The translations under genes were made by a program, and so were the position numbers. DNA of 64,000 bases, taken from assembly GCA_020719045.1 (NCBI GenBank), contig DYQY01000002.1, positions 70,360 to 134,359 on the forward strand. Reading direction: 5' to 3'. This document shows positions 38,853 through 50,099 of this stretch, piece after piece. Positions within the stretch are counted from its first letter, which is position 1. Each line of letters begins with the position of its first letter. The notes below the pieces were generated by a model that ran no database searches, was not told the origin of the DNA, and saw only the letters and a list, made by a program, of their open reading frames with translations. Source of the stretch: Candidatus Termititenax sp. (lineage in GTDB: Bacteria; Margulisbacteria; Riflemargulisbacteria; GWF2-35-9; DYQY01).

Positions 38853-41800
38853 CTATTTAATATCAAAAACGAAATCATAAAATACATCTGGAGAATAGAG
38901 CCTACGTGCTCGTATAATATACCTACCGCTTATTGGACTACAAACAACATTATTCTCAACTATTCCATTAGCGTTAGTTACTGACCTCCTATTAAAGTCC
39001 ACAATGGCTCCAAGAGGCTTCTGAACCAATTCCCACAAAATAGCATCATACGCTACTTTATTTCTGGTTTTACTATAAATAACATCAAGAGATAATGGAA
39101 CCCTTACTACATCTTTCTTAGACAAATATTCGCCAAATCCAGATAATGGCCTTATTAAATATTCACCATCAAAAACTCTAATATTATACTCAATCTTATT
39201 AGCTAGCAAATAAGAACTAATAACTAAACTATACTCACCGGGGTCATCAAAGGTGTTTTCAAATTTATATTCATCACCAATAGGAACGATGCGCTTAAGT
39301 GTCTTAATACTACCATCTACCTTTGATAAAATACGAATATCTAATTCAATGCCTGATTTACTTTCAACTAACCCAACCTTAGGAACAACTAAAAATGAAA
39401 ATGATTCTGTTTGATTTATAAAGGTCGAGTGATGTAATCTATCGACAACAGCTATATTATATATTGAGCCTGTCTTTGAATTAAGTTTAAACGACACCTT
39501 ATCACTCATCCACGGAATCATTCTATTCTTTGCAATAGAAACTGTAACATCTTCAATGTTATTTCGCACATCAGGGGTTAACAACACCTCAAGCATGGCA
39601 CTAGGTTCTATAAGCAGTTTCTCAACCTTTCTATTCTTGCCAACCTTAATACTTCCAGCAACAACCCTATCCTTATTGTTATATATCTTTAAGCGATATG
39701 GTTGTTGTCCAACAAACAAATCCATTTTATTTGAACGATTAAAAACTATTTTCTCATTATTAATAACAACCACATCATCACCAAAATCAACAGGAGCTGG
39801 ATCGGCCTGTGACTCTTCTTGCTTAGGATTTTCTGCATCCACTGGTAATCCTACATAATTTAAACTCACTTCACTTGCCAAATCTTTTACGATATCAACA
39901 TTAAATATAACTGATGCCCTAGAATTTAATTCAACTACCTTTACAACAAATTTTCTTTCATAAGCCCTATTAATATCTGGCATAGAGGATCTTCCTTCAG
40001 AATCAGTCTTCGTTCTTCTAACAAAAGAAGCATCTTTAGCTACCTCATAAATCTCCCATTCAAGAGGAACGTTAGGAACAGGGTTGTTTAGTCTGTCTAC
40101 AAGTTGAATCTCACATAACCTGCTACCATCATTAACATTAACAACAACTTTTTCTGACTGTAACGGAACGAGCTTTAACAACCCACCATCCTTGTTCTTT
40201 TCAGCCGATTTCTTTTGTTTGATTTTTTCGCTAACAACAGATAAATCAAAAACGGTTTTAAGTTTATCTTGGAACTGAGGATAAGCTATTATTTTATACT
40301 TCCCTAAAGCTACTGGCGCTGTGAATTTTTGTTTTGCAAATCCATTAACATCTGTTTTACTCATTTTTTCTAAAACGACTGCACCTTTAGCGCCTTTTTC
40401 ATCGCTAATAAGCTGAAATATAATCGGCATATCCTGAACAGAATTACCATGTAAATCAAAAGCTTTAACAACATACATCTCAGGAATCTCTTTACCTACT
40501 AACACCTCTTGACTGTCCCCTGCAATCTTCTTAATGGATGATACAGAAAGACCAAGCACCTTCACATAATAAGAGACATACTCCCATTTACCGCCTCGTT
40601 TATAATAGGCCTTAATCTCTTTAACACCAGGATTCATATCAGCAACAAAATTAAAAGTAGATATCCCACGTCTATCGGTTTTAACAGTCTGAATATATTG
40701 TCTATTTTCACCCTTAACATCTACAGCATATGACCATCTAACTTGTTCTCCAACCATAGGGTTTTCATATATATCACTTAACTTAATTGATAAAACCTCA
40801 GCCAAAGACGCCCCTGGATTCAAAACCTGATTATTTCCAGAAAGAATTACTGCAGAGTAAAGCACTTCTGGCTTCACATCTACAACAACCGCCTGCTTAA
40901 CATCATTATCAAAATCAGAATAGACAACCACATTATACCTTCCTGCTTTTTCAGGCATCACAATATCAAACATTGCTATACCCTTCGCATCAGTAAATGC
41001 ATCAGCCCCAGCAGAAGTAGTAACCATCCTTCCAAAGTACATATCCATGCTTAATTTTGCTTTTTCAACAAAGTTTCCATATCTATCTACCACTCGCGTC
41101 TTATAAATCCCTTTATACTGTTTACCAGCAACATACTCTCTACTCTTATCATCTGCATCAACAATAATTAAACTATCAACACCTGACTCAGTAGCATCAA
41201 ACTGATAAAAAACTGAACTTGAATAAGAGGCATCTGTAACATACAAATAATACTTTCCTTTATTGTCAGGAACTTGGAAAGGAAGCACTGTATATCCAGT
41301 AGGACTTATCTCAACTTTTTTATTAAAATCATGCTTTAACACTTTTTTCGCATTATTAATACCATAAACAATAGTTCCCTTAGTTATTAAATTATCATTT
41401 TTATCATAGAACTGTGCCCCTACAGAGCTAACTTGTCTAAAAACCGGAAATCTTGGATTATCCTTTGCCACAAGTCTAATTCTTGTTGGTCTATCAGGAA
41501 CTGCTTTTACGACTATATCTTTTTCTAAAGTGTTAATTTTGGCAGTATAAATATAATCTCCCTTCAAGTTACCAAGAATCGGATTAAATTCTGCCATTCC
41601 TTGTCTATTAGTCTTCAGTTGATATACCTGTTCTGATTCTTTGCCTACAATTGCACCAGAAGGAGCTTTTTTCAGTCTTACTGATAAAAATATATCAACA
41701 ACTGGAGAAGCATTATTATCAGCAACAAAAACCTGAATTGGCTTATCTAGATTAGAACCAACAACGCCTTCTATAAAGTCAGGGACTACTATGCTAGATA

Positions 41801-44318
41801 TTTCTTCAGGGATAGCATTTATCTTAACCCAAGTTATTCTTGGTTTACCATCAACGAAATATTTACCTTTTAGATTAATAACATCTTTTTGATCACTAGC
41901 AACAAAATTAAAACTTACTCGTCCCTCTTTATCAGTTGCTAACGTATAATTTTGTAAATATTGAACTCCTCGCTTATAAACAATATATTCGATATTAACC
42001 TTCTCATCTGGCAGTACTGCTCCATACTGATCCCTCAAAACAAATTCAATAGGTTCAGCAAGCATCTGACTCGTGAAAACATTTAATACAGGCTTACTTA
42101 CTAAGTATAACTTATAGAAGCTTGGTTGCTTAGCAGATATCTTAAAAGACTGTCTTACTTTTCCAACTTGAGCAACTACAATGTTTTCTTTGCTATCAGA
42201 CTCGCCAACCTTAACTACAGCTCTCGCATAACCATCCAAATCAGTAGTTTCATCTAGATCAACAAAAGAGATATTCTTCTGCGTACTCCACTTAACCTCA
42301 GCATTTGGTATTGGGTTCTTTTTATCATCCAGAACATGAATAACTAATGGTTCAGAATTCTTTTCCCACTCAATAGTTTGATTGTTTCCAGTAACAATCT
42401 TCATTTGCGCAGCATTTCCTGGCATAACCAAAACCACAAAAGCAGCCTCATACTCAGGAACTTTTGGAGAAGAAGCAATAACCTGAAAATAACCCACCAC
42501 CTCTGGCGTTCTAAAGTTAACAATAGCAATACCATTTTTGTCTGTGCGGATTCTCTTTGCCTCTAACTCCTCAAAAGTACTTGTTTGAAAAGAAAAATCA
42601 ATAGGGATATGAGGACAAGGATTACCTTTATCATCTAAAACCTTAACTTTAAAAGGTGCTTTTAATGGAATACCAATGATTGCTTCAACTTCCTCTTGAC
42701 CTAAAGCAATTATCTCAACTGGCTTTGTTGACTCACTCTGAACAGTATAAGCAAATTGAGAGTTAGTTCCTTCAAGTTTAGCAATTATTAAAGATCTACC
42801 AGAATTATCACTTAAACGATAATCAAAACTTACCTTACCCTTCTTATCAGACTTTGCTTCAGCAAAAACAAAAGGCTCGTTCTTTTCATCAATGTCTTGT
42901 TCTAATAATTGAACCTTAGCCCCTGGTACTTCATTCTTATACTGGTCATAAACTTTTAAAACAAAAGCCTTCCTCATCAATTTACCTGCTCTTTGAAAAA
43001 CCATTGCTCTATTTGTTACATCACTTATAATAAAAGGCGCCTCTGGCTCTGTTTTAAAAGCATAAACAAATTTATTACCCTTAACATTTAGCTGAAGTTC
43101 ATGATTACCTACTTTATGACCGAATCGTAAACTTACTTTTAACTTACCATTTTTATCTGTAAAAACTGTCATAGGGGTTAAAAGCAATGGATTATTCTTA
43201 CCTTTTGCAGTAAAGCTCACCTTTACTCTTTCATTTGCTATTATTTCACCCAACGCATTAACAAATTCAAACTCAACCCCATCTAACCTTGAAGCAACTT
43301 TATATATTTTTGATGTTAATTTAGTCTTAACAACAACTTCTTTTCTTTTCTGCTTCTCTATTCTTTCTGATACGACTGTTCTTTGGAAAAAGTTATTAGC
43401 GCCTCTAAATACATCAGAAACATTACTCTGCATTGTTCCAATGAAGCTATTTCCAGTCTTACTAATATTATTAACATATATAAAAAGATAATTATTTCTG
43501 AAAACCGCTAAAAAATGATCAGTGATTACTGAAACTCTTTTTTCAAGAACACTTACACCCTTTTCGCCAATGTGAAATAAAGAATTATCATTACTATATG
43601 TAACATCTGCAACCTTAGATAACCCCTTACCCATAAACCCGCCAACAGGCTTTGCATTATCCTTAACAAAACCAAATAACGATGATATAGCCTTAAATAC
43701 AAATTTATTGAACTCTACAAAAAAATTCCACAATATACTTAGATATCTTGATGTTTCCCTTAAAACACCCTTAAAAAGCTTACCATATGATATTTTTGAT
43801 GATTCTGTTTTATACCTAAAATCAACAACGATATTCTTAACATTAATTACAGCTCCATCTTTCTCAGAGAAAACATACTCAGTATCAAAGACCCCATCAA
43901 ATAATGGCATCTTATCTTTATTTATTGTTACTTCAGGATCTGAAACAGACGCTTTACACGATATATCCAAAATCTGTTTTTCTAAAATAGATTCTTGTGG
44001 AAAACGAAACTCTAAATTAATAAAATTTTTCTGTTTATCCATAATCGACAACTGATACAGCTTATTTGCATCATAATCTAAGTTAACTGAACGATAAACA
44101 TTATCTCTTTTCTGCCAAGCAATACTCTTATCGTTAAGTAGTACGTTCTCCAAAACAAAACTATCACCTATTAAAAAGAATGACTGATTTTTTGTATCAA
44201 AAGCTACTGATGAACGATAATCCTGTGTTGGACCATAAAAAAAGAAATATATTAATGGGATGGAAACAATAAAAAGAAGATACATGCCTAATAATATTAA
44301 TAAGAGTTTCTTCTTCAT
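38853..44318 (-). CDS. 1821-residue membrane-anchored Ig-like (Big_1) repeat protein
   Basis: One N-terminal membrane helix (KLLLILLGMYLLFIVSIPLIYFFF, residues 4-27) is followed by a unique region to about 330 and then roughly a dozen repeats of 90-130 residues resembling bacterial Ig-like group 1 (invasin-type) domains. The recurring pattern is D-x-x-x-N-P-V-P-x-A/V-x-V-x-W/F, then TDxxGxA-x-x-x-F and G-x-Y-x-V-x-A, for example LDDKGNPCPHIPIDFSF and VVDRYGNFVEKAKLSM. No C-terminal anchor or sorting motif is seen, so it probably projects from the inner membrane into the periplasm. An adhesive or structural role is likely but unproven; the alpha-2-macroglobulin family was considered but no thioester motif is present. 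Confidence 0.8.
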   Translation of the reverse strand: MKKKLLLILLGMYLLFIVSIPLIYFFFYGPTQDYRSSVAFDTKNQSFFLIGDSFVLENVLLNDKSIAWQKRDNVYRSVNLDYDANKLYQLSIMDKQKNFINLEFRFPQESILEKQILDISCKASVSDPEVTINKDKMPLFDGVFDTEYVFSEKDGAVINVKNIVVDFRYKTESSKISYGKLFKGVLRETSRYLSILWNFFVEFNKFVFKAISSLFGFVKDNAKPVGGFMGKGLSKVADVTYSNDNSLFHIGEKGVSVLEKRVSVITDHFLAVFRNNYLFIYVNNISKTGNSFIGTMQSNVSDVFRGANNFFQRTVVSERIEKQKRKEVVVKTKLTSKIYKVASRLDGVEFEFVNALGEIIANERVKVSFTAKGKNNPLLLTPMTVFTDKNGKLKVSLRFGHKVGNHELQLNVKGNKFVYAFKTEPEAPFIISDVTNRAMVFQRAGKLMRKAFVLKVYDQYKNEVPGAKVQLLEQDIDEKNEPFVFAEAKSDKKGKVSFDYRLSDNSGRSLIIAKLEGTNSQFAYTVQSESTKPVEIIALGQEEVEAIIGIPLKAPFKVKVLDDKGNPCPHIPIDFSFQTSTFEELEAKRIRTDKNGIAIVNFRTPEVVGYFQVIASSPKVPEYEAAFVVLVMPGNAAQMKIVTGNNQTIEWEKNSEPLVIHVLDDKKNPIPNAEVKWSTQKNISFVDLDETTDLDGYARAVVKVGESDSKENIVVAQVGKVRQSFKISAKQPSFYKLYLVSKPVLNVFTSQMLAEPIEFVLRDQYGAVLPDEKVNIEYIVYKRGVQYLQNYTLATDKEGRVSFNFVASDQKDVINLKGKYFVDGKPRITWVKINAIPEEISSIVVPDFIEGVVGSNLDKPIQVFVADNNASPVVDIFLSVRLKKAPSGAIVGKESEQVYQLKTNRQGMAEFNPILGNLKGDYIYTAKINTLEKDIVVKAVPDRPTRIRLVAKDNPRFPVFRQVSSVGAQFYDKNDNLITKGTIVYGINNAKKVLKHDFNKKVEISPTGYTVLPFQVPDNKGKYYLYVTDASYSSSVFYQFDATESGVDSLIIVDADDKSREYVAGKQYKGIYKTRVVDRYGNFVEKAKLSMDMYFGRMVTTSAGADAFTDAKGIAMFDIVMPEKAGRYNVVVYSDFDNDVKQAVVVDVKPEVLYSAVILSGNNQVLNPGASLAEVLSIKLSDIYENPMVGEQVRWSYAVDVKGENRQYIQTVKTDRRGISTFNFVADMNPGVKEIKAYYKRGGKWEYVSYYVKVLGLSVSSIKKIAGDSQEVLVGKEIPEMYVVKAFDLHGNSVQDMPIIFQLISDEKGAKGAVVLEKMSKTDVNGFAKQKFTAPVALGKYKIIAYPQFQDKLKTVFDLSVVSEKIKQKKSAEKNKDGGLLKLVPLQSEKVVVNVNDGSRLCEIQLVDRLNNPVPNVPLEWEIYEVAKDASFVRRTKTDSEGRSSMPDINRAYERKFVVKVVELNSRASVIFNVDIVKDLASEVSLNYVGLPVDAENPKQEESQADPAPVDFGDDVVVINNEKIVFNRSNKMDLFVGQQPYRLKIYNNKDRVVAGSIKVGKNRKVEKLLIEPSAMLEVLLTPDVRNNIEDVTVSIAKNRMIPWMSDKVSFKLNSKTGSIYNIAVVDRLHHSTFINQTESFSFLVVPKVGLVESKSGIELDIRILSKVDGSIKTLKRIVPIGDEYKFENTFDDPGEYSLVISSYLLANKIEYNIRVFDGEYLIRPLSGFGEYLSKKDVVRVPLSLDVIYSKTRNKVAYDAILWELVQKPLGAIVDFNRRSVTNANGIVENNVVCSPISGRYIIRARRLYSPDVFYDFVFDIK

Positions 44319-44439: not shown

Positions 44440-46119
44440 CTAATAATCAAACTTTAAAGTAGAGTAAACTCTATTTAAAGCAACAGTCATAGGCATTTGC
44501 TTAGCAGAAGGTCCCCAAAGCTGTCTTGGACCAGGCGAATTAAACAAATCACTACTTGCCCAATCATCTCTCCTTGACTCAAAAAACTGAAAAGCAGGTG
44601 AATCTAATTTAACCAATGCTTTTTCAATTACCATCTCATCATGACCATGCCTTCTCTCAATATTCAATAAACCAGTAAGCGGTATGCCAAGTATCTTTAT
44701 TTCTTTATCAAAAGACGCAACTGAAGCAATATAACCAGTTTTGCCAGCCAAAATCAATGAACCAGCTGTTAATCCAAGATTATATGTATATGCTGCATCA
44801 AACAATGTAGGAGCTCCACATCTGCCTTCATAACCAAAAAAATGCTGTTGATGATTAAATGGAACTGACGAATCCATTTCCTTAACTTTACGCTGAACCA
44901 TCTCAATAATTAATCGCTCAGTAGGAATTAATGAAACTTGTAAGTTTCCATGAGAATCTCTATCAGCTAGCAACATATCTTCAATATAATCTGGCAATGA
45001 AGCCATTAACTTTGTATTCTCTGCTGTTAACTTAGTATAAATAAACTCTCTTTTTTCCTCTTTGTCTTTATTTGCAAGAACACTAGAGAACTCAGCTACT
45101 TTATCATTTAATTCTGCAACTAGATGCTTCATTTCAGGAATAAATTCAATAATTCCTTCTGGAACAAGAACTACACCATAGTTAATACCCTTCTTAGATC
45201 TTTCAACAACAACCTTTGCAATGCTGCTAATAATATCATCTAAGGATAACCTTTTTTCCTCAACTTCCTCAGAAATAAGACATATAGCTGGCTTTGTCTG
45301 CAATGCTACTTCTAATGCAACATGCGAAGCACTTCTTCCCATTAACTTAATAAAATGCCAATACTTTCGTGAAGATGGGGTATCTTGAAGAATATTCCCA
45401 ACTAGCTCAGCATAAATCTTTGTAGCTGTATCAAAACCGAAAGAAATAGGCAACAAGTCTCCGACCTGTAAGTCACCATCGATTGTTTTAGGACATCCGA
45501 TAACTTGAACACCCATATCATAAAGATATTCCGCTAAAACAGCAGCATTAGTGTTTGAATCATCACCACCAATAACAACTATTGCATTTAGTTCATATTT
45601 CTTACAAGTAGCTTTAACCATTGAAAACTGTTCATCAGTCTTAATCTTAGTTCTATCACTTCCTAAGTAATCAAAACCGCCAGTATTAGCAATACTTAAA
45701 ATATCCTTATCTGAAATCTCAAACAAATCTCCCTTAAGTAACCCCTTAGGTCCAGCTTTAACACCGTATAACTTGTTATTTGTTCCTAATATTCGCTTAA
45801 GACCAACGACTACGTTATGACCTCCAGCTGCAGGTCCACCAGAAAACAATACGGCAACATTTAAGCCAGACTTAGCTGTTAAATTTGTTGCCCTAGCCTT
45901 TAAAACCTTATTGCCAGATTCTGAAACAGAGTTTTTAAATGCCTCATTTACCTTTAAGGTATCTTTATTATATAACTCTGTACCTTCTTCTTCAAAACCA
46001 ACCGGCAATAATGCGCCATCTTTCAAAAAAACCTTACAAGTTGGAATATCCATTTGCTTTATTTCTTGTTCAAATAAAGAATTATGACCTTCCGTACTAA
46101 TTAGCAAATCTTTTATCAC
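44440..46119 (-). CDS. pfp: PPi-dependent 6-phosphofructokinase
   Basis: This 559-residue enzyme phosphorylates fructose 6-phosphate with pyrophosphate, reversibly. The PPi signature is present: GGDDSNTNAA, with Asp where ATP enzymes have Gly, and PKTIDGDL with the Lys that favours PPi. FSGGPAAGGHNVV is the first glycine-rich loop. Length fits the plant-beta/long clade group. I prefer the GTG at 46119, 9 nt after AGGAGG, over an upstream TTG only 3 nt from it. It ends the operon hppA-tpiA-fba-pfp. Confidence 0.95.
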   Translation of the reverse strand: MIKDLLISTEGHNSLFEQEIKQMDIPTCKVFLKDGALLPVGFEEEGTELYNKDTLKVNEAFKNSVSESGNKVLKARATNLTAKSGLNVAVLFSGGPAAGGHNVVVGLKRILGTNNKLYGVKAGPKGLLKGDLFEISDKDILSIANTGGFDYLGSDRTKIKTDEQFSMVKATCKKYELNAIVVIGGDDSNTNAAVLAEYLYDMGVQVIGCPKTIDGDLQVGDLLPISFGFDTATKIYAELVGNILQDTPSSRKYWHFIKLMGRSASHVALEVALQTKPAICLISEEVEEKRLSLDDIISSIAKVVVERSKKGINYGVVLVPEGIIEFIPEMKHLVAELNDKVAEFSSVLANKDKEEKREFIYTKLTAENTKLMASLPDYIEDMLLADRDSHGNLQVSLIPTERLIIEMVQRKVKEMDSSVPFNHQQHFFGYEGRCGAPTLFDAAYTYNLGLTAGSLILAGKTGYIASVASFDKEIKILGIPLTGLLNIERRHGHDEMVIEKALVKLDSPAFQFFESRRDDWASSDLFNSPGPRQLWGPSAKQMPMTVALNRVYSTLKFDY

Positions 46120-46141
46120 TATCAATTACCTCCTAAGATAA

Positions 46142-47113
46142 TTATGCTTTTCCAGCACTACCAAGAACGTTGATGTTCTTTAATTTATAAAGCTCTTTTA
46201 ATGCATCTCTCGCTGGTCCAAGATATTTTCTTGGATCAAACTCGCCTGGACTATCATGAAATACTTTTCTAATAGCTGCTGTCATTGCAAGTCTTCCATC
46301 TGAGTCGATATTAATCTTACATACAGCTGATTTGGCAGCTAATCTTAATTGTTCCTCAGGAATACCAATAGCATCGGCCATTTTTCCGCCTGTAGCGTTA
46401 ATGATAGCTACTAAATCTTGTGGAACTGATGAAGAACCATGAAGAACAATTGGAAAACCTGGAATCTTTCTTTCAATTTGCTCAAGAATATCTAATCTAA
46501 TCTTTGGATCTTGTCCTGGCTTAAACTTAAATGCACCATGTGAAGTACCAACAGCAATAGCTAAACTATCTACACCTGTTTTAGAAACGAATTCTTCAAC
46601 TTCTTCTGGCTGTGTATACACATGATCAGCGGCTACAACATCATCTTCTACTCCAGCTAAAACACCTAGCTCACCTTCAACAGTAACATAGTTTTCTCTT
46701 GAATGAGCATATTCAACAACTTGTCTTGTTAACTTAATATTTTCTTCGAAAGAATGATGTGAACCATCAATCATAACAGAAGAGAAACCTGTATCAATAC
46801 AATCCTTACAGATCTGAAAATCAGAACCATGGTCTAAATGTAGAACTATTGGAATATTTCCACCTAATTCTTTAGCATACTCAACCGCACCTTGTGCCAT
46901 ATATCTTAATAATGTCTGATTAGCATATTTTCTAGCACCAGAAGATACTTGTAAAATAACTGGAGAATTTGTCTCAACGCATGCTTGGATAATAGCTTGC
47001 ATCTGCTCCATATTATTGAAATTATAAGCTGGAATTGCATATCCACCCTTAACTGCTTTTGCAAACAACTCTTTACTATTTACTAAACCTAACTCTTTAT
47101 AACTAACTGTCAT
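46142..47113 (-). CDS. fba: Class II fructose-bisphosphate aldolase
   Basis: The 323-residue zinc aldolase splits fructose 1,6-bisphosphate to glyceraldehyde 3-phosphate and DHAP. Zinc ligands are in PIVLHLDHGSD and LHGSSSVPQDL, with YVTVEGELGVLAGVEDD and ISIDTD-like NIDSDGRLAMTAAIRKV. This clade (KYANQTLLRYMAQGAVEYAKE) is common in anaerobes and Clostridia. AGGAGGGG precedes the ATG. It sits 14 nt after tpiA and 22 nt before pfp, so product and substrate enzymes are adjacent. Confidence 0.97.
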   Translation of the reverse strand: MTVSYKELGLVNSKELFAKAVKGGYAIPAYNFNNMEQMQAIIQACVETNSPVILQVSSGARKYANQTLLRYMAQGAVEYAKELGGNIPIVLHLDHGSDFQICKDCIDTGFSSVMIDGSHHSFEENIKLTRQVVEYAHSRENYVTVEGELGVLAGVEDDVVAADHVYTQPEEVEEFVSKTGVDSLAIAVGTSHGAFKFKPGQDPKIRLDILEQIERKIPGFPIVLHGSSSVPQDLVAIINATGGKMADAIGIPEEQLRLAAKSAVCKINIDSDGRLAMTAAIRKVFHDSPGEFDPRKYLGPARDALKELYKLKNINVLGSAGKA

Positions 47114-47127
47114 TTTACCCCTCCTAA

Positions 47128-47877
47128 TTAATAATTAATAATATCAGCGAAACTGTCGGCTTTTAAACTTGCCCCACCTACCAATGCACCATCAATATCA
47201 GACTTACCCATTAACTCATTACTAGTTTCTGGAGTAACGCTACCACCATAAAGAATAGAAATCTGTTCAGCTACTGCTTCGCTAGTCATTGATACTAACA
47301 GCTTACGAATATACACATGAACATCATTTGCTTGTTGTGGTGTAGCTGTCTTTCCTGTACCTATTGCCCAAACTGGCTCATAAGCAATAACAATTTTCTT
47401 TAAATCATCAGCAGAAATATCTTTAAGACCTTCAGAAACCTGCTCCTTTATAACCTTCTCAACCTTACCAGCTTCTCTCTGCTCTAATGTTTCACCAACG
47501 CAATAAATAGGAGTTAAATTATTTTCAATAGCAACTTTAACTTTATTATTTAAAAACTGATTAGATTCATTAAAATACTGTCTTCTTTCTGAATGACCAA
47601 TAATAACATATTTGCAGCCAACACTCTTAAGCATAGAAGCACTAATTTCACCAGTATAAGCACCTTTTTCTTCAGTATACATATTCTGAGCACCTAGTTT
47701 AATATCAGAATCTTTAACTATTTCATTAACAGATGATAAGTTTGTAAAAGAAGGGCAAATAACTACCTCAACCTTATTTTTATTCTTAAATCCCTTTTTT
47801 AATTTCTCAACAAGCTGAACAGCTTCGTCAAGATCCTTGTTCATTTTCCAATTACCAGCAATAATCATTTTTCCCAT
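47128..47877 (-). CDS. tpiA: Triosephosphate isomerase
   Basis: TpiA interconverts DHAP and glyceraldehyde 3-phosphate. The 249-residue barrel has NWKMN with the catalytic Lys, IGHSERR with the catalytic His, AYEPVWAIGTGKTA with catalytic Glu and loop 6, and the phosphate-binding YGGSV ... GALVGGASLK. It follows the pyrophosphatase homologue by 16 nt. Confidence 0.98.
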   Translation of the reverse strand: MGKMIIAGNWKMNKDLDEAVQLVEKLKKGFKNKNKVEVVICPSFTNLSSVNEIVKDSDIKLGAQNMYTEEKGAYTGEISASMLKSVGCKYVIIGHSERRQYFNESNQFLNNKVKVAIENNLTPIYCVGETLEQREAGKVEKVIKEQVSEGLKDISADDLKKIVIAYEPVWAIGTGKTATPQQANDVHVYIRKLLVSMTSEAVAEQISILYGGSVTPETSNELMGKSDIDGALVGGASLKADSFADIINY

Positions 47878-47893: not shown

Positions 47894-49861
47894 TTAACTT
47901 ATTATCGGCACAAAAATAATTGTTATCAAAATAACAACCTTTAAAAACGCATTAATTGATGGTCCTAAAACATCTTTCATGCAATCACCGTATAAATCTG
48001 CTTCTGTAGCATTTACGTACCTTTTTGTATCTTTACCGCCCATGAAACCCTTTTCAATATAATTTTTTGCATTATCAAGCAAAACACCAGAATTCGTATA
48101 ACTAATTGAAAGAAATGTTGAAACCATAATACATCCCACAAAAAAAGCAGCTAACACTTCTACACTTAAAAACCTACCGATAATAAATGGCAGAAAGAAA
48201 ACAGCAAGTGATGGCAACATTAAATCTTTAAGAATATTAATCCCATATAATCTAACAAATCTTCTCAAATCAGGAGTCGTCTTTCCCTGTCTTAAATAAG
48301 GTATCTCCTGTAGTTGAATCTTTGCCTCATCAAACATAGCAGTTACAGTATAAGAAAGTGCTCTCATAATTACTGACACAAAAATATATGGAAATAATCC
48401 ACCAAGAAAAAGCGAAAGCATAATTACTGGATGGAACAAAGGAATACTATTATAGTTAATTCCTGATATCTGAACAAAAGATAAGAAAAAAGAAAAAGCC
48501 ATGAACAATACAGCATAGGATGAAGCATGCTTACCCACTGCCGCTAACGCATTACCTGTTGAGTTCATGTATTGAATATCTCTTAACTGAGTCTCGTTTT
48601 TATCCATACTTGCAATACCCTTTAAAGTATCCAAAAAAGGAGCCGAAAAAGAAGATGCAACCATTAGTGGCAACATTGACACAAACCCAATGCCAACCAA
48701 AATAATCCCATAATAATCAGAAATCTTATAAGCAATAAAAACAAATACTGCAGCAATTATAATTGGGATATAAGTTGTCCTCATGCCCACTGATATTGCA
48801 TTAATAATTGATAACACGGTGCTATATTGTGATAAATAAGCATTATCTTTTACTTGTTTATGAGAATCAGAAGTATAGATATCAGTAATAGCTCCAATTA
48901 TTATTGAAAAAATAACGCCCATGATGATACAAACAAAAGGGCTCATTTGACTTGATAGACCTAAAAAACTACTGGTAGTAATTAATGGCAAAGTATTTGC
49001 CTTTGTAACAAAAAAAACAAAAATCGCTATAACTAATAAAGAAAAATATGTTGCATGCAATGGTTTAAGAATAGTTGCCATAAACTGCTCTCTTTTTAAA
49101 AACAGAAAAACAAAACTAATAAGGAAAGCAATAACTAAACTACCAATGCCAATAACAACAGGATAATACACTAACATTAATGCATCATTAATATTAATAA
49201 CATCTGTAATAAAATAAGCTCCTACATAAATAATTACCGCCACAAACATCCCGATAAATGCTTCTATTAAATTTATATTAATAGCTAATCCGCTATTTAA
49301 AAAATCACCTACTTTATCTGCTAAAGAGGAAACATTTCTTAAATCATTAACATTAATATCGGCCTCTTCTCTAGCAAGTAGCTCTGATGATATATCAGCC
49401 CCCTTAGCAAACAACCCTCCACCCACTTGAAGAAAAAAGGAAACAATAGCCATACCCATCAAATAATAAAGAGTGGACATTGCTCCATATATAAATAAAA
49501 CGATGAAAAGACCCAATAACGGTGTAACAGTCAAAAATATTGAAAAGAAAATACCAACAGCATAGTAAAGATCAAATAACTTTGAAGAATTATCTAAAAG
49601 CGATATTTCTTTTCTTTCTACAAACTTAAAGGCAATAGGAAACGCGAAGTAAGCACAAAAAATAGTTAATAGTCCACCAATAAAAAAAGAAATTACATTC
49701 GTTAAAACTACAGATGCACCAAATAAGAATGATAAAACAACGAGAATAACCATAAAGGCAACTAGAAGTAATGAACTAAAAATAAAGTATCTTCTTAATA
49801 AATATATAAAGTTCTCTCTTATAAGATTAATTATATTATTAAAAAGCTCTTTACCTTCCAT
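47894..49861 (-). CDS. Membrane pyrophosphatase homologue with altered active site
   Basis: The 655-residue protein has about 15 membrane helices and aligns by eye with H+/Na+-translocating pyrophosphatases: GGGLFAKGAD (147-156), NDLRNVSSLADKVGD (172-186), NSTGNALAAVGK and DNAKNYIEKGFMGGKDTKRYVNA. However, the PPi site differs. Canonical DVGADLVGK reads DISSELLAR (156-164), DNVGDNVGD reads DKVGDFLNS (182-190), SDNAGGIAEM is LDTLKGIASM and GDTVGDPFKD is ADLYGDCMKD. Several Mg-PPi ligands are thus lost or changed. It may be a divergent pump, a paralogue with another role, or inactive. It is first in the operon with tpiA, fba and PPi-dependent pfp, 18 nt after tRNA-Lys. Confidence 0.8.
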   Translation of the reverse strand: MEGKELFNNIINLIRENFIYLLRRYFIFSSLLLVAFMVILVVLSFLFGASVVLTNVISFFIGGLLTIFCAYFAFPIAFKFVERKEISLLDNSSKLFDLYYAVGIFFSIFLTVTPLLGLFIVLFIYGAMSTLYYLMGMAIVSFFLQVGGGLFAKGADISSELLAREEADINVNDLRNVSSLADKVGDFLNSGLAININLIEAFIGMFVAVIIYVGAYFITDVININDALMLVYYPVVIGIGSLVIAFLISFVFLFLKREQFMATILKPLHATYFSLLVIAIFVFFVTKANTLPLITTSSFLGLSSQMSPFVCIIMGVIFSIIIGAITDIYTSDSHKQVKDNAYLSQYSTVLSIINAISVGMRTTYIPIIIAAVFVFIAYKISDYYGIILVGIGFVSMLPLMVASSFSAPFLDTLKGIASMDKNETQLRDIQYMNSTGNALAAVGKHASSYAVLFMAFSFFLSFVQISGINYNSIPLFHPVIMLSLFLGGLFPYIFVSVIMRALSYTVTAMFDEAKIQLQEIPYLRQGKTTPDLRRFVRLYGINILKDLMLPSLAVFFLPFIIGRFLSVEVLAAFFVGCIMVSTFLSISYTNSGVLLDNAKNYIEKGFMGGKDTKRYVNATEADLYGDCMKDVLGPSINAFLKVVILITIIFVPIIS

Positions 49862-49882
49862 GAATACCTCGTATTTTTTTGG

Positions 49883-49955
49883 TGCACCGTGAAGGATTCG
49901 AACCTTCGACCCTCTGATTAAGAGTCAGATGCTCTACCAACTGAGCTAACGGTGC
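49883..49955 (-). tRNA. tRNA-Lys (CTT)
   Basis: A full cloverleaf: acceptor GCACCGT/ACGGTGC, D-arm AGCTCAGTTGGTAGAGC, anticodon stem TCTGA/TCAGA with loop CTCTTAA (anticodon CTT), T-arm GGTTCGAATCC. Discriminator A and CCA are encoded (to 49880). Only 18 nt separate the CCA from the start of the pyrophosphatase homologue. Confidence 0.97.
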
Positions 49956-50025
49956 ATTAATTTTTTGCATCATCAGTATACCAGAAACTAATACCTTGAA
50001 CAATAAATAAGTATGCAAAGAATGG

Positions 50026-50099
50026 CGCGCTCGAAGAGACTTGAACTCCCGACACACGGATTCGAAGTCCGTTGCTCTATCCAGCTGAGCTACGAGCGC
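50026..50099 (-). tRNA. tRNA-Arg (TCG)
   Basis: Acceptor GCGCTCG/CGAGCGC, anticodon stem ACGGA/TCCGT with loop CTTCGAA (anticodon TCG, codon CGA), T-arm AGTTCAAGTCT. Discriminator G and encoded CCA follow (50023-50025). It lies 70 nt upstream of tRNA-Lys and is probably cotranscribed. Confidence 0.96.

Follow-up and report, generated by a model that had tools for sequence, protein, structure and literature searches.

The window (the whole 64,000-nucleotide stretch of DNA analyzed here) encodes, at positions 47894..49861 of the reverse strand, a 655-amino-acid protein, referred to below as PPL, that is a diverged and probably non-hydrolyzing homolog of membrane pyrophosphatases (mPPases), as judged from its open reading frame (ORF), its match to the Pfam family PF03030, tables of site residues, and phylogenetic trees. 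PPL very likely does not hydrolyze pyrophosphate (PPi) at a useful rate. The reading preferred here, if only tentatively, is that of a non-hydrolyzing mPPase paralog whose pocket and ion path have perhaps been reused, either for a cation conductance gated by a ligand or for sensing PPi. Among the options listed in the preliminary description of this locus, "non-hydrolyzing paralog" agrees best with the data: a catalytic ligand is lost, a canonical hppA gene is found elsewhere in the genome, and an entire clade shares the changes.

Family membership and residue conservation

The frame is intact from the ATG to the stop codon, as the preliminary description had it, with exactly the coordinates and all four of the motif strings given there, and its 655-residue product matches PF03030 with 322 bits (cutoff, 29.7) over profile positions 20 to 645 of 645, i.e., over the full length. 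The solved mPPases of Vigna align to it with an E value of about 2e-57 over 600 residues, which excludes chance, and the solved Thermotoga mPPase does so with an E value of about 1e-55. Identity to canonical mPPases is below 30%, and PPL scores below all NCBIfam equivalog cutoffs (the best score is 313 versus 546; for TIGR01104, it is 264 versus 652). An AlphaFold2 model built from the window protein, L003, L103, and L104 had a pLDDT of 46 and was not usable. Going by sequence, PPL is within the PF03030 superfamily but is not a member of EC 7.1.3.1, because it failed several defining features of the ion-pumping enzyme.

Residues were compared with those of the Vigna radiata enzyme VrPPase (4A01), whose chain numbering reproduces the published residues, and the pocket was defined as the 16 residues of the hydrolytic center listed in PMC6882861. 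Twelve of these are identical in PPL in the alignment to 4A01 (K250, D253, D279, D283, D507, N534, D691, K694, D723, D727, K730, and D731) and four are changed (D257E, E268V, D269N, and D287S); K261R, K695N, and R242Q are further substitutions, while K12.50, K16.38, and D16.39 (D731) are kept. According to the preliminary description, this protein differs from known mPPases in four Mg-PPi-binding motifs. This is true of the motif strings but not of most ligands within them. K250 (K5.58) corresponds to K153 of PPL (positions 49403..49405; all window features given below are, like PPL, on the reverse strand). DISSELLAR, the first motif, starts with D156 (49394..49396), the counterpart of D253 (D5.61), which is kept, although D257E and K261R fall within the same string. 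The lost E268 and D269 (E5.76 and D5.77) correspond to V171-N172 (49346..49351). The second motif, DKVGDFLNS, keeps D279 and D283 but has S190 (49292..49294) in place of D287 (D6.43), the water-activating aspartate (PMC10897367, PMC5150537). The third, LDTLKGIASM, is changed as a string but retains D507 (D11.57) as D411 (48629..48631), and the fourth, ADLYGDCMKD, is likewise altered, with all of its ligands in place: in DLYGDCMKD (47972..47998), residues D622, D626, K629, and D630 correspond to D723, D727, K730, and D731 (D16.39). Accordingly, a "remodeled" active site is an overstatement for PPL, where most of the site survives and a single loss is decisive, but is the right term for the sister clade B described below.

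That decisive loss breaks the D16.39/D6.43 aspartate pair, in which D16.39 is kept and D6.43 is replaced by Ser. The attacking water is activated by these two aspartates, with D6.43 treated as central (PMC10897367, PMC5150537), and D6.43 has been described as the catalytically essential general base (PMC10897367). Since helix 6 of PPL aligns without gaps from D283 to the ion gate and has no Asp or Glu between D283 and E6.53, the D6.43 ligand is lost rather than shifted, so that a shifted but conserved ligand is ruled out at this position. In the resting state, the water is contacted by D16.39 alone (PMC10897367). With this residue present, and with the pocket ligands in the clade that includes the window protein (clade A, see below) being more often conserved than invariant columns in general (76% versus 51%), slow hydrolysis by PPL may be possible.

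The ion gate of mPPases comprises D6.50, E6.53/6.57, S6.54, N/D16.46, and K16.50. Within the helix 6 gate stretch of PPL (49259..49273), D6.50 is replaced by N197 and S6.54 by A201, while E6.53, the Na+-type gate Glu, is kept as E200; in helix 16 (47939..47953), N637 (N16.46) and K641 (K16.50) are both kept. All five gate residues are kept, in the Na+-type arrangement, in five clade A relatives from family f2. In the window's own genus, R242 is replaced by Gln, D6.50 by Asn, and S6.54 by Ala, which leaves a weaker gate than that of the other clade A members. The overall topology had been described as retained, which does not hold for transmembrane helix 1 (TM1): according to the alignment, TM1 of canonical mPPases is absent from PPL and its six nearest relatives, and the N termini of all seven clade A members align to the linker after TM1. 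By the same alignment, PPL falls short of the 16 helices that characterize mPPases. TM1 is retained in clade B.

Distribution and evolution of the PPL clade

The search for PPL homologs used PF03030 on 55 relatives and a new profile on 47 genomes from the phylum. Short diverged mPPase copies of the PPL type were detected in 23 genomes from 13 families of the phylum. Those of the window's order (n = 7) are referred to here as clade A and those of other families as clade B. In a 32-row tree, whose canonical rows were the mPPases of the phylum itself, Vigna, and Cytophagales, the two clades formed one group (support, 100/100) apart from canonical mPPases, and the same split was recovered in a 67-row tree that included the longest branches (SH-aLRT, 99). 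Long branches may nevertheless bias the placing in these trees, but the location directly upstream of tpiA (see below) is an independent character that agrees with this clade. The signature of the clade consists of L239F, G617Y, and W690L, and the window protein falls within the clade definition. When the window protein was used in a contig search for near relatives outside the phylum, none were found, and the only match was a canonical Cytophagales mPPase with 26% identity; PPL was not found on viral contigs, where mPPases are few.

Every member of clade A keeps 12 or 13 of the 16 pocket residues and has lost the same ones. D269 is replaced by Asn in 7 of 7 members, and D6.43 is replaced by Asn in 5 and by Ser in 2, so the search for a clade sharing the substitutions, suggested in the preliminary description, gave a positive result throughout the order. 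Clade B presents a different picture: K250, D507, D691, and K12.50 are absent in 13 of 13 members, and position 6.43 is free to vary (D, N, H, K, E, S, Q, or A), but the gate is kept, with D6.50 in 13, S6.54 in 12, and K16.50 in 12 of the 13. For the gate-region sites (R242, D6.50, S6.54, and K16.50), 96% of cells are kept in clade B, versus 45% for 119 invariant columns; random four-site sets matched this conservation in 22 of 20,000 draws, a figure that can serve only as a guide because part of the choice of sites followed inspection of the table. The PPLs of family f7 (L063:6080-8053 and L064:6107-8089) have 0 of 16 pocket residues and keep D6.50, S6.54, K16.50, and the adjacency to tpiA. 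That the clade B pocket has decayed next to a nearly invariant gate suggests that selection has kept the ion path instead of hydrolytic activity.

When the window's genome was compared with the other genome of its genus, the dN/dS ratio came to 0.089 for PPL versus 0.093 for the canonical hppA, and two other PPL pairs gave 0.02 and 0.04. These ratios are rough, as dS is near or above 1, but a relic is nonetheless excluded, and PPL, by this comparison of coding sequences, is under strong purifying selection, as strong as that on canonical hppA. There is next to no probability that PPL is a decaying relic or an assembly error, for which the missing catalytic residue and the low (<30%) identity to canonical mPPases are the only points that could be cited. 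Against it stand the intact frame, a relative from the same genus that is 81% identical and has the same changes (which also disposes of sequencing error), the dN/dS range of 0.02 to 0.09 in three pairs, and the presence of the gene in 23 genomes. This explanation is refuted for the clade, and an in-frame stop was seen in a single copy, that of genome G020 (L055:6391-8400), where a single TAA interrupts the frame; in G034, from the same genus, the frame is open.

Genomic context and companion pyrophosphatases

The placing of PPL as the first gene ahead of tpiA, fba, and a PPi-dependent pfp was borne out: the four genes follow in this order on one strand with short gaps (16 bp between PPL and tpiA). 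The tpiA gene (47128..47877), the conserved downstream neighbor, encodes triosephosphate isomerase (PF00121, 349 bits); fba (46142..47113) encodes a class II fructose-bisphosphate aldolase (neighbor family F8, whose representative L039 matched NF005481); and pfp (44440..46125) encodes a PPi-dependent phosphofructokinase (PF00365; TIGR02477, 596 bits versus a cutoff of 588). Directly downstream of pfp is a gene for an 1821-aa protein (38853-44318) with matches to the Big_1 (bacterial Ig-like) and macroglobulin-like domains. On the other side, PPL is directly preceded by tRNA-Lys (CTT) (49880..49955), conserved in 7 of 7 loci of the order, and further upstream by tRNA-Arg (TCG) (50023..50099); some tRNA-Arg is upstream in 7 of 7 loci of the order. 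No riboswitch or other RNA element besides these tRNAs was found upstream of PPL, and a promoter and terminator scan returned sites no more numerous than in shuffled sequences.

Across the phylum, PPL is directly upstream of tpiA in 21 loci, the exceptions being L045, with a gap of 591 bp, and L041, where the contig ends. The gene order in clade A is tRNA-Arg, tRNA-Lys, PPL, tpiA, fba, pfp; that typical of clade B is mgtE, recO, PPL, tpiA, ppiA. The proposed link to a glycolysis operon holds phylum-wide for tpiA but not for fba and pfp, which come after PPL and tpiA in this order only (fba also does so in one more lineage). Where PPL is absent, tpiA commonly precedes fba and in many cases pfp as well, with different genes upstream, so that the cluster either acquired PPL at its head or lost it from there.

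A second, canonical hppA, whose presence the preliminary description had proposed to check, does exist. The window's genome (1.75 Mb, 99% complete) carries one further PF03030 gene, located on another contig (C9:1757-3862, 897 bits), whose product (L001) is a canonical, Na+-type 740-aa mPPase with every ligand intact (16 of 16 pocket residues) and the gate Glu at position 6.53; it passes NF001954, the sodium-translocating model (1026 versus 894), as well as NF001960 and TIGR01104. This genome yielded no soluble PPases of either family I or family II. An mPPase with an intact-looking site is also encoded in 18 of the 23 PPL genomes, and none was found in the other five, which are 83 to 91% complete; thus, PPL is not only an accessory of the canonical enzyme, and the idea that it might be its strict partner is weakened. 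The two genes are unlinked except in G032 (L044:1041-7500), where PPL, tpiA, a PFK-family gene, and canonical hppA occur in a row on one strand, the sole such case seen. In family f2, the active mPPase belongs to two very different types (L008 versus L066 and L069) while PPL stays.

Several other unusual mPPases and PPase complements were encountered in the phylum. A third mPPase type (L065-L070), of about 813 aa and with a very long branch, has K261I, N280C, and inserted loops, along with 16 of 16 pocket residues where checked, and replaces canonical hppA in G002-G005, G007, and G009. A diverged type of about 769 aa (L037, L049, L053, and L054; families f10 and f9) has D6.43 replaced by Asn and D6.50 by Gly, Val, or Asn; since two of these, L037 and L049, fall within the canonical group in the tree, D6.43 was lost more than once. 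In four genomes of family f4 (G008, G010, G013, and G015; 92 to 100% complete), neither mPPases nor family I or II soluble PPases were detected, and the same four carry PPDK. PPDK above the cutoff was not found in the window's genome (G000) and is present in the other genome of the genus; this may be an assembly gap.

Possible functions and comparison with known systems

There is continuing debate over whether ion movement in mPPases is dependent on hydrolysis or on the binding of the substrate (PMC5150537, PMC9408878, PMC10897367). Under the binding-change model (Li et al., PMC5150537), ions move before hydrolysis takes place, so that a protein such as PPL could function in ligand-gated cation conductance or as a sensor. 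An old duplication would have given rise to PPL, followed by inheritance beside tpiA over much of the phylum. The retained pocket of clade A might bind Mg-PPi or a similar phosphate compound without useful hydrolysis, and the bound ligand would then alter the state of the inherited ion path. PPL would either conduct Na+/cations in a ligand-gated manner or sense PPi or phosphate in the membrane, its activity being matched to glycolytic flux in a cell with a PPi-using phosphofructokinase. The weaker gate in the window's genus favors the sensor reading for the window protein itself. A still broader proposal, namely, that an mPPase lineage gave up hydrolysis throughout the phylum but kept its ion path, becoming a PPi/phosphate-gated Na+/cation channel or sensor tied to glycolysis and the first non-enzymatic member of the family, is rather doubtful.

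PPL could instead be a still working PPi-driven pump with an altered site, in which Asn or Ser at position 6.43 would be tolerated, D16.39 would act alone, and fewer Mg ions would be bound. The 12 or 13 pocket residues kept in clade A are in line with such a pump, as are the presence of D16.39, K16.38, K12.50, and E6.53, the lack of detected soluble PPases of families I and II in the genome, and the PPL genomes without a canonical mPPase. However, four f4 genomes lack any of the three PPase families, and the lack of another PPase therefore proves little; besides, the very residue described as the catalytically essential general base (PMC10897367) is gone, D6.50 is also lost in the window protein, canonical hppA is already present, and the orthologous clade B gene has its pocket dismantled, all of which makes a working pump unlikely. 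Similarly unlikely is that PPL serves as a dead subunit, forming heterodimers with the active mPPase and tuning it via the half-of-sites behavior known for the dimer. The dimeric nature of mPPases, with subunit cooperation (PMC9408878), fits this idea, and dead paralogs that activate active enzymes are known elsewhere (PMC5201418, PMC3663545), but the 18 PPL genomes with an intact-looking mPPase have to be set against the five with no canonical enzyme detected, PPL remains constant in f2 while its would-be partner switches between very different types, and hppA is linked to PPL in G032 only.

Transport of a phosphate compound itself (PPi, Pi, or triose phosphate), by a transporter or channel, would be consistent with the retention of the phosphate-binding K250, K694, and K730 alongside the loss of several Mg-binding acids and with the conserved adjacency to tpiA. 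This function is decidedly improbable: the sequence gives no evidence of a wider path, K250 is lost in 13 of 13 clade B proteins, which keep the cation gate, and the adjacency to tpiA is no proof of a functional link, since the other neighbors in the clade (recO, mgtE, and ppiA) are unrelated. If confirmed, the conductance or sensor function preferred here would make PPLs a branch without enzymatic function in a family of primary pumps, located beside tpiA over much of the phylum, and PPLs would caution against annotating every PF03030 match as a proton or sodium pump. Clade A homologs with Asn at D6.43 and a near-intact pocket and gate (the best are L036, L038, and L039) would be tools for the question of hydrolysis versus binding, as these proteins may be able to bind PPi, and to move an ion or gate its passage, without PPi cleavage.

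In the open-access literature searched, every described mPPase is a PPi-driven pump, and no description of an inactive, pseudo-, or non-pumping mPPase branch was found. Outside the family, PPL resembles the prozymes (PMC5201418, PMC3663545) in being a conserved paralog that lacks a catalytic residue and occurs beside an active copy; prozymes, however, are soluble trypanosomatid enzymes that regulate the active one, whereas some PPL genomes are without an active copy. The Na+-regulated H+-PPases of Luoto et al. (2015), as cited in PMC6882861, likewise form a diverged mPPase branch but are reported there to be active and H+ transporting, and it is by this description alone that they are set apart from PPL. 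With the Na+-mPPase of the Thermotoga maritima type (PF03030, TIGR01104, NF001960), PPL shares full-length homology, E6.53, N16.46, K16.50, K12.50, and 12 of the 16 pocket residues; it differs by the loss of D6.43, E268, and D269, the substitutions D257E, D6.50N, S6.54A, and K695N, and the missing TM1. Relative to the H+-mPPase of Vigna radiata (4A01), a member of the same family, the losses in PPL are the same, and the gate Glu is at position 6.57 in the Vigna enzyme but at 6.53 in PPL.
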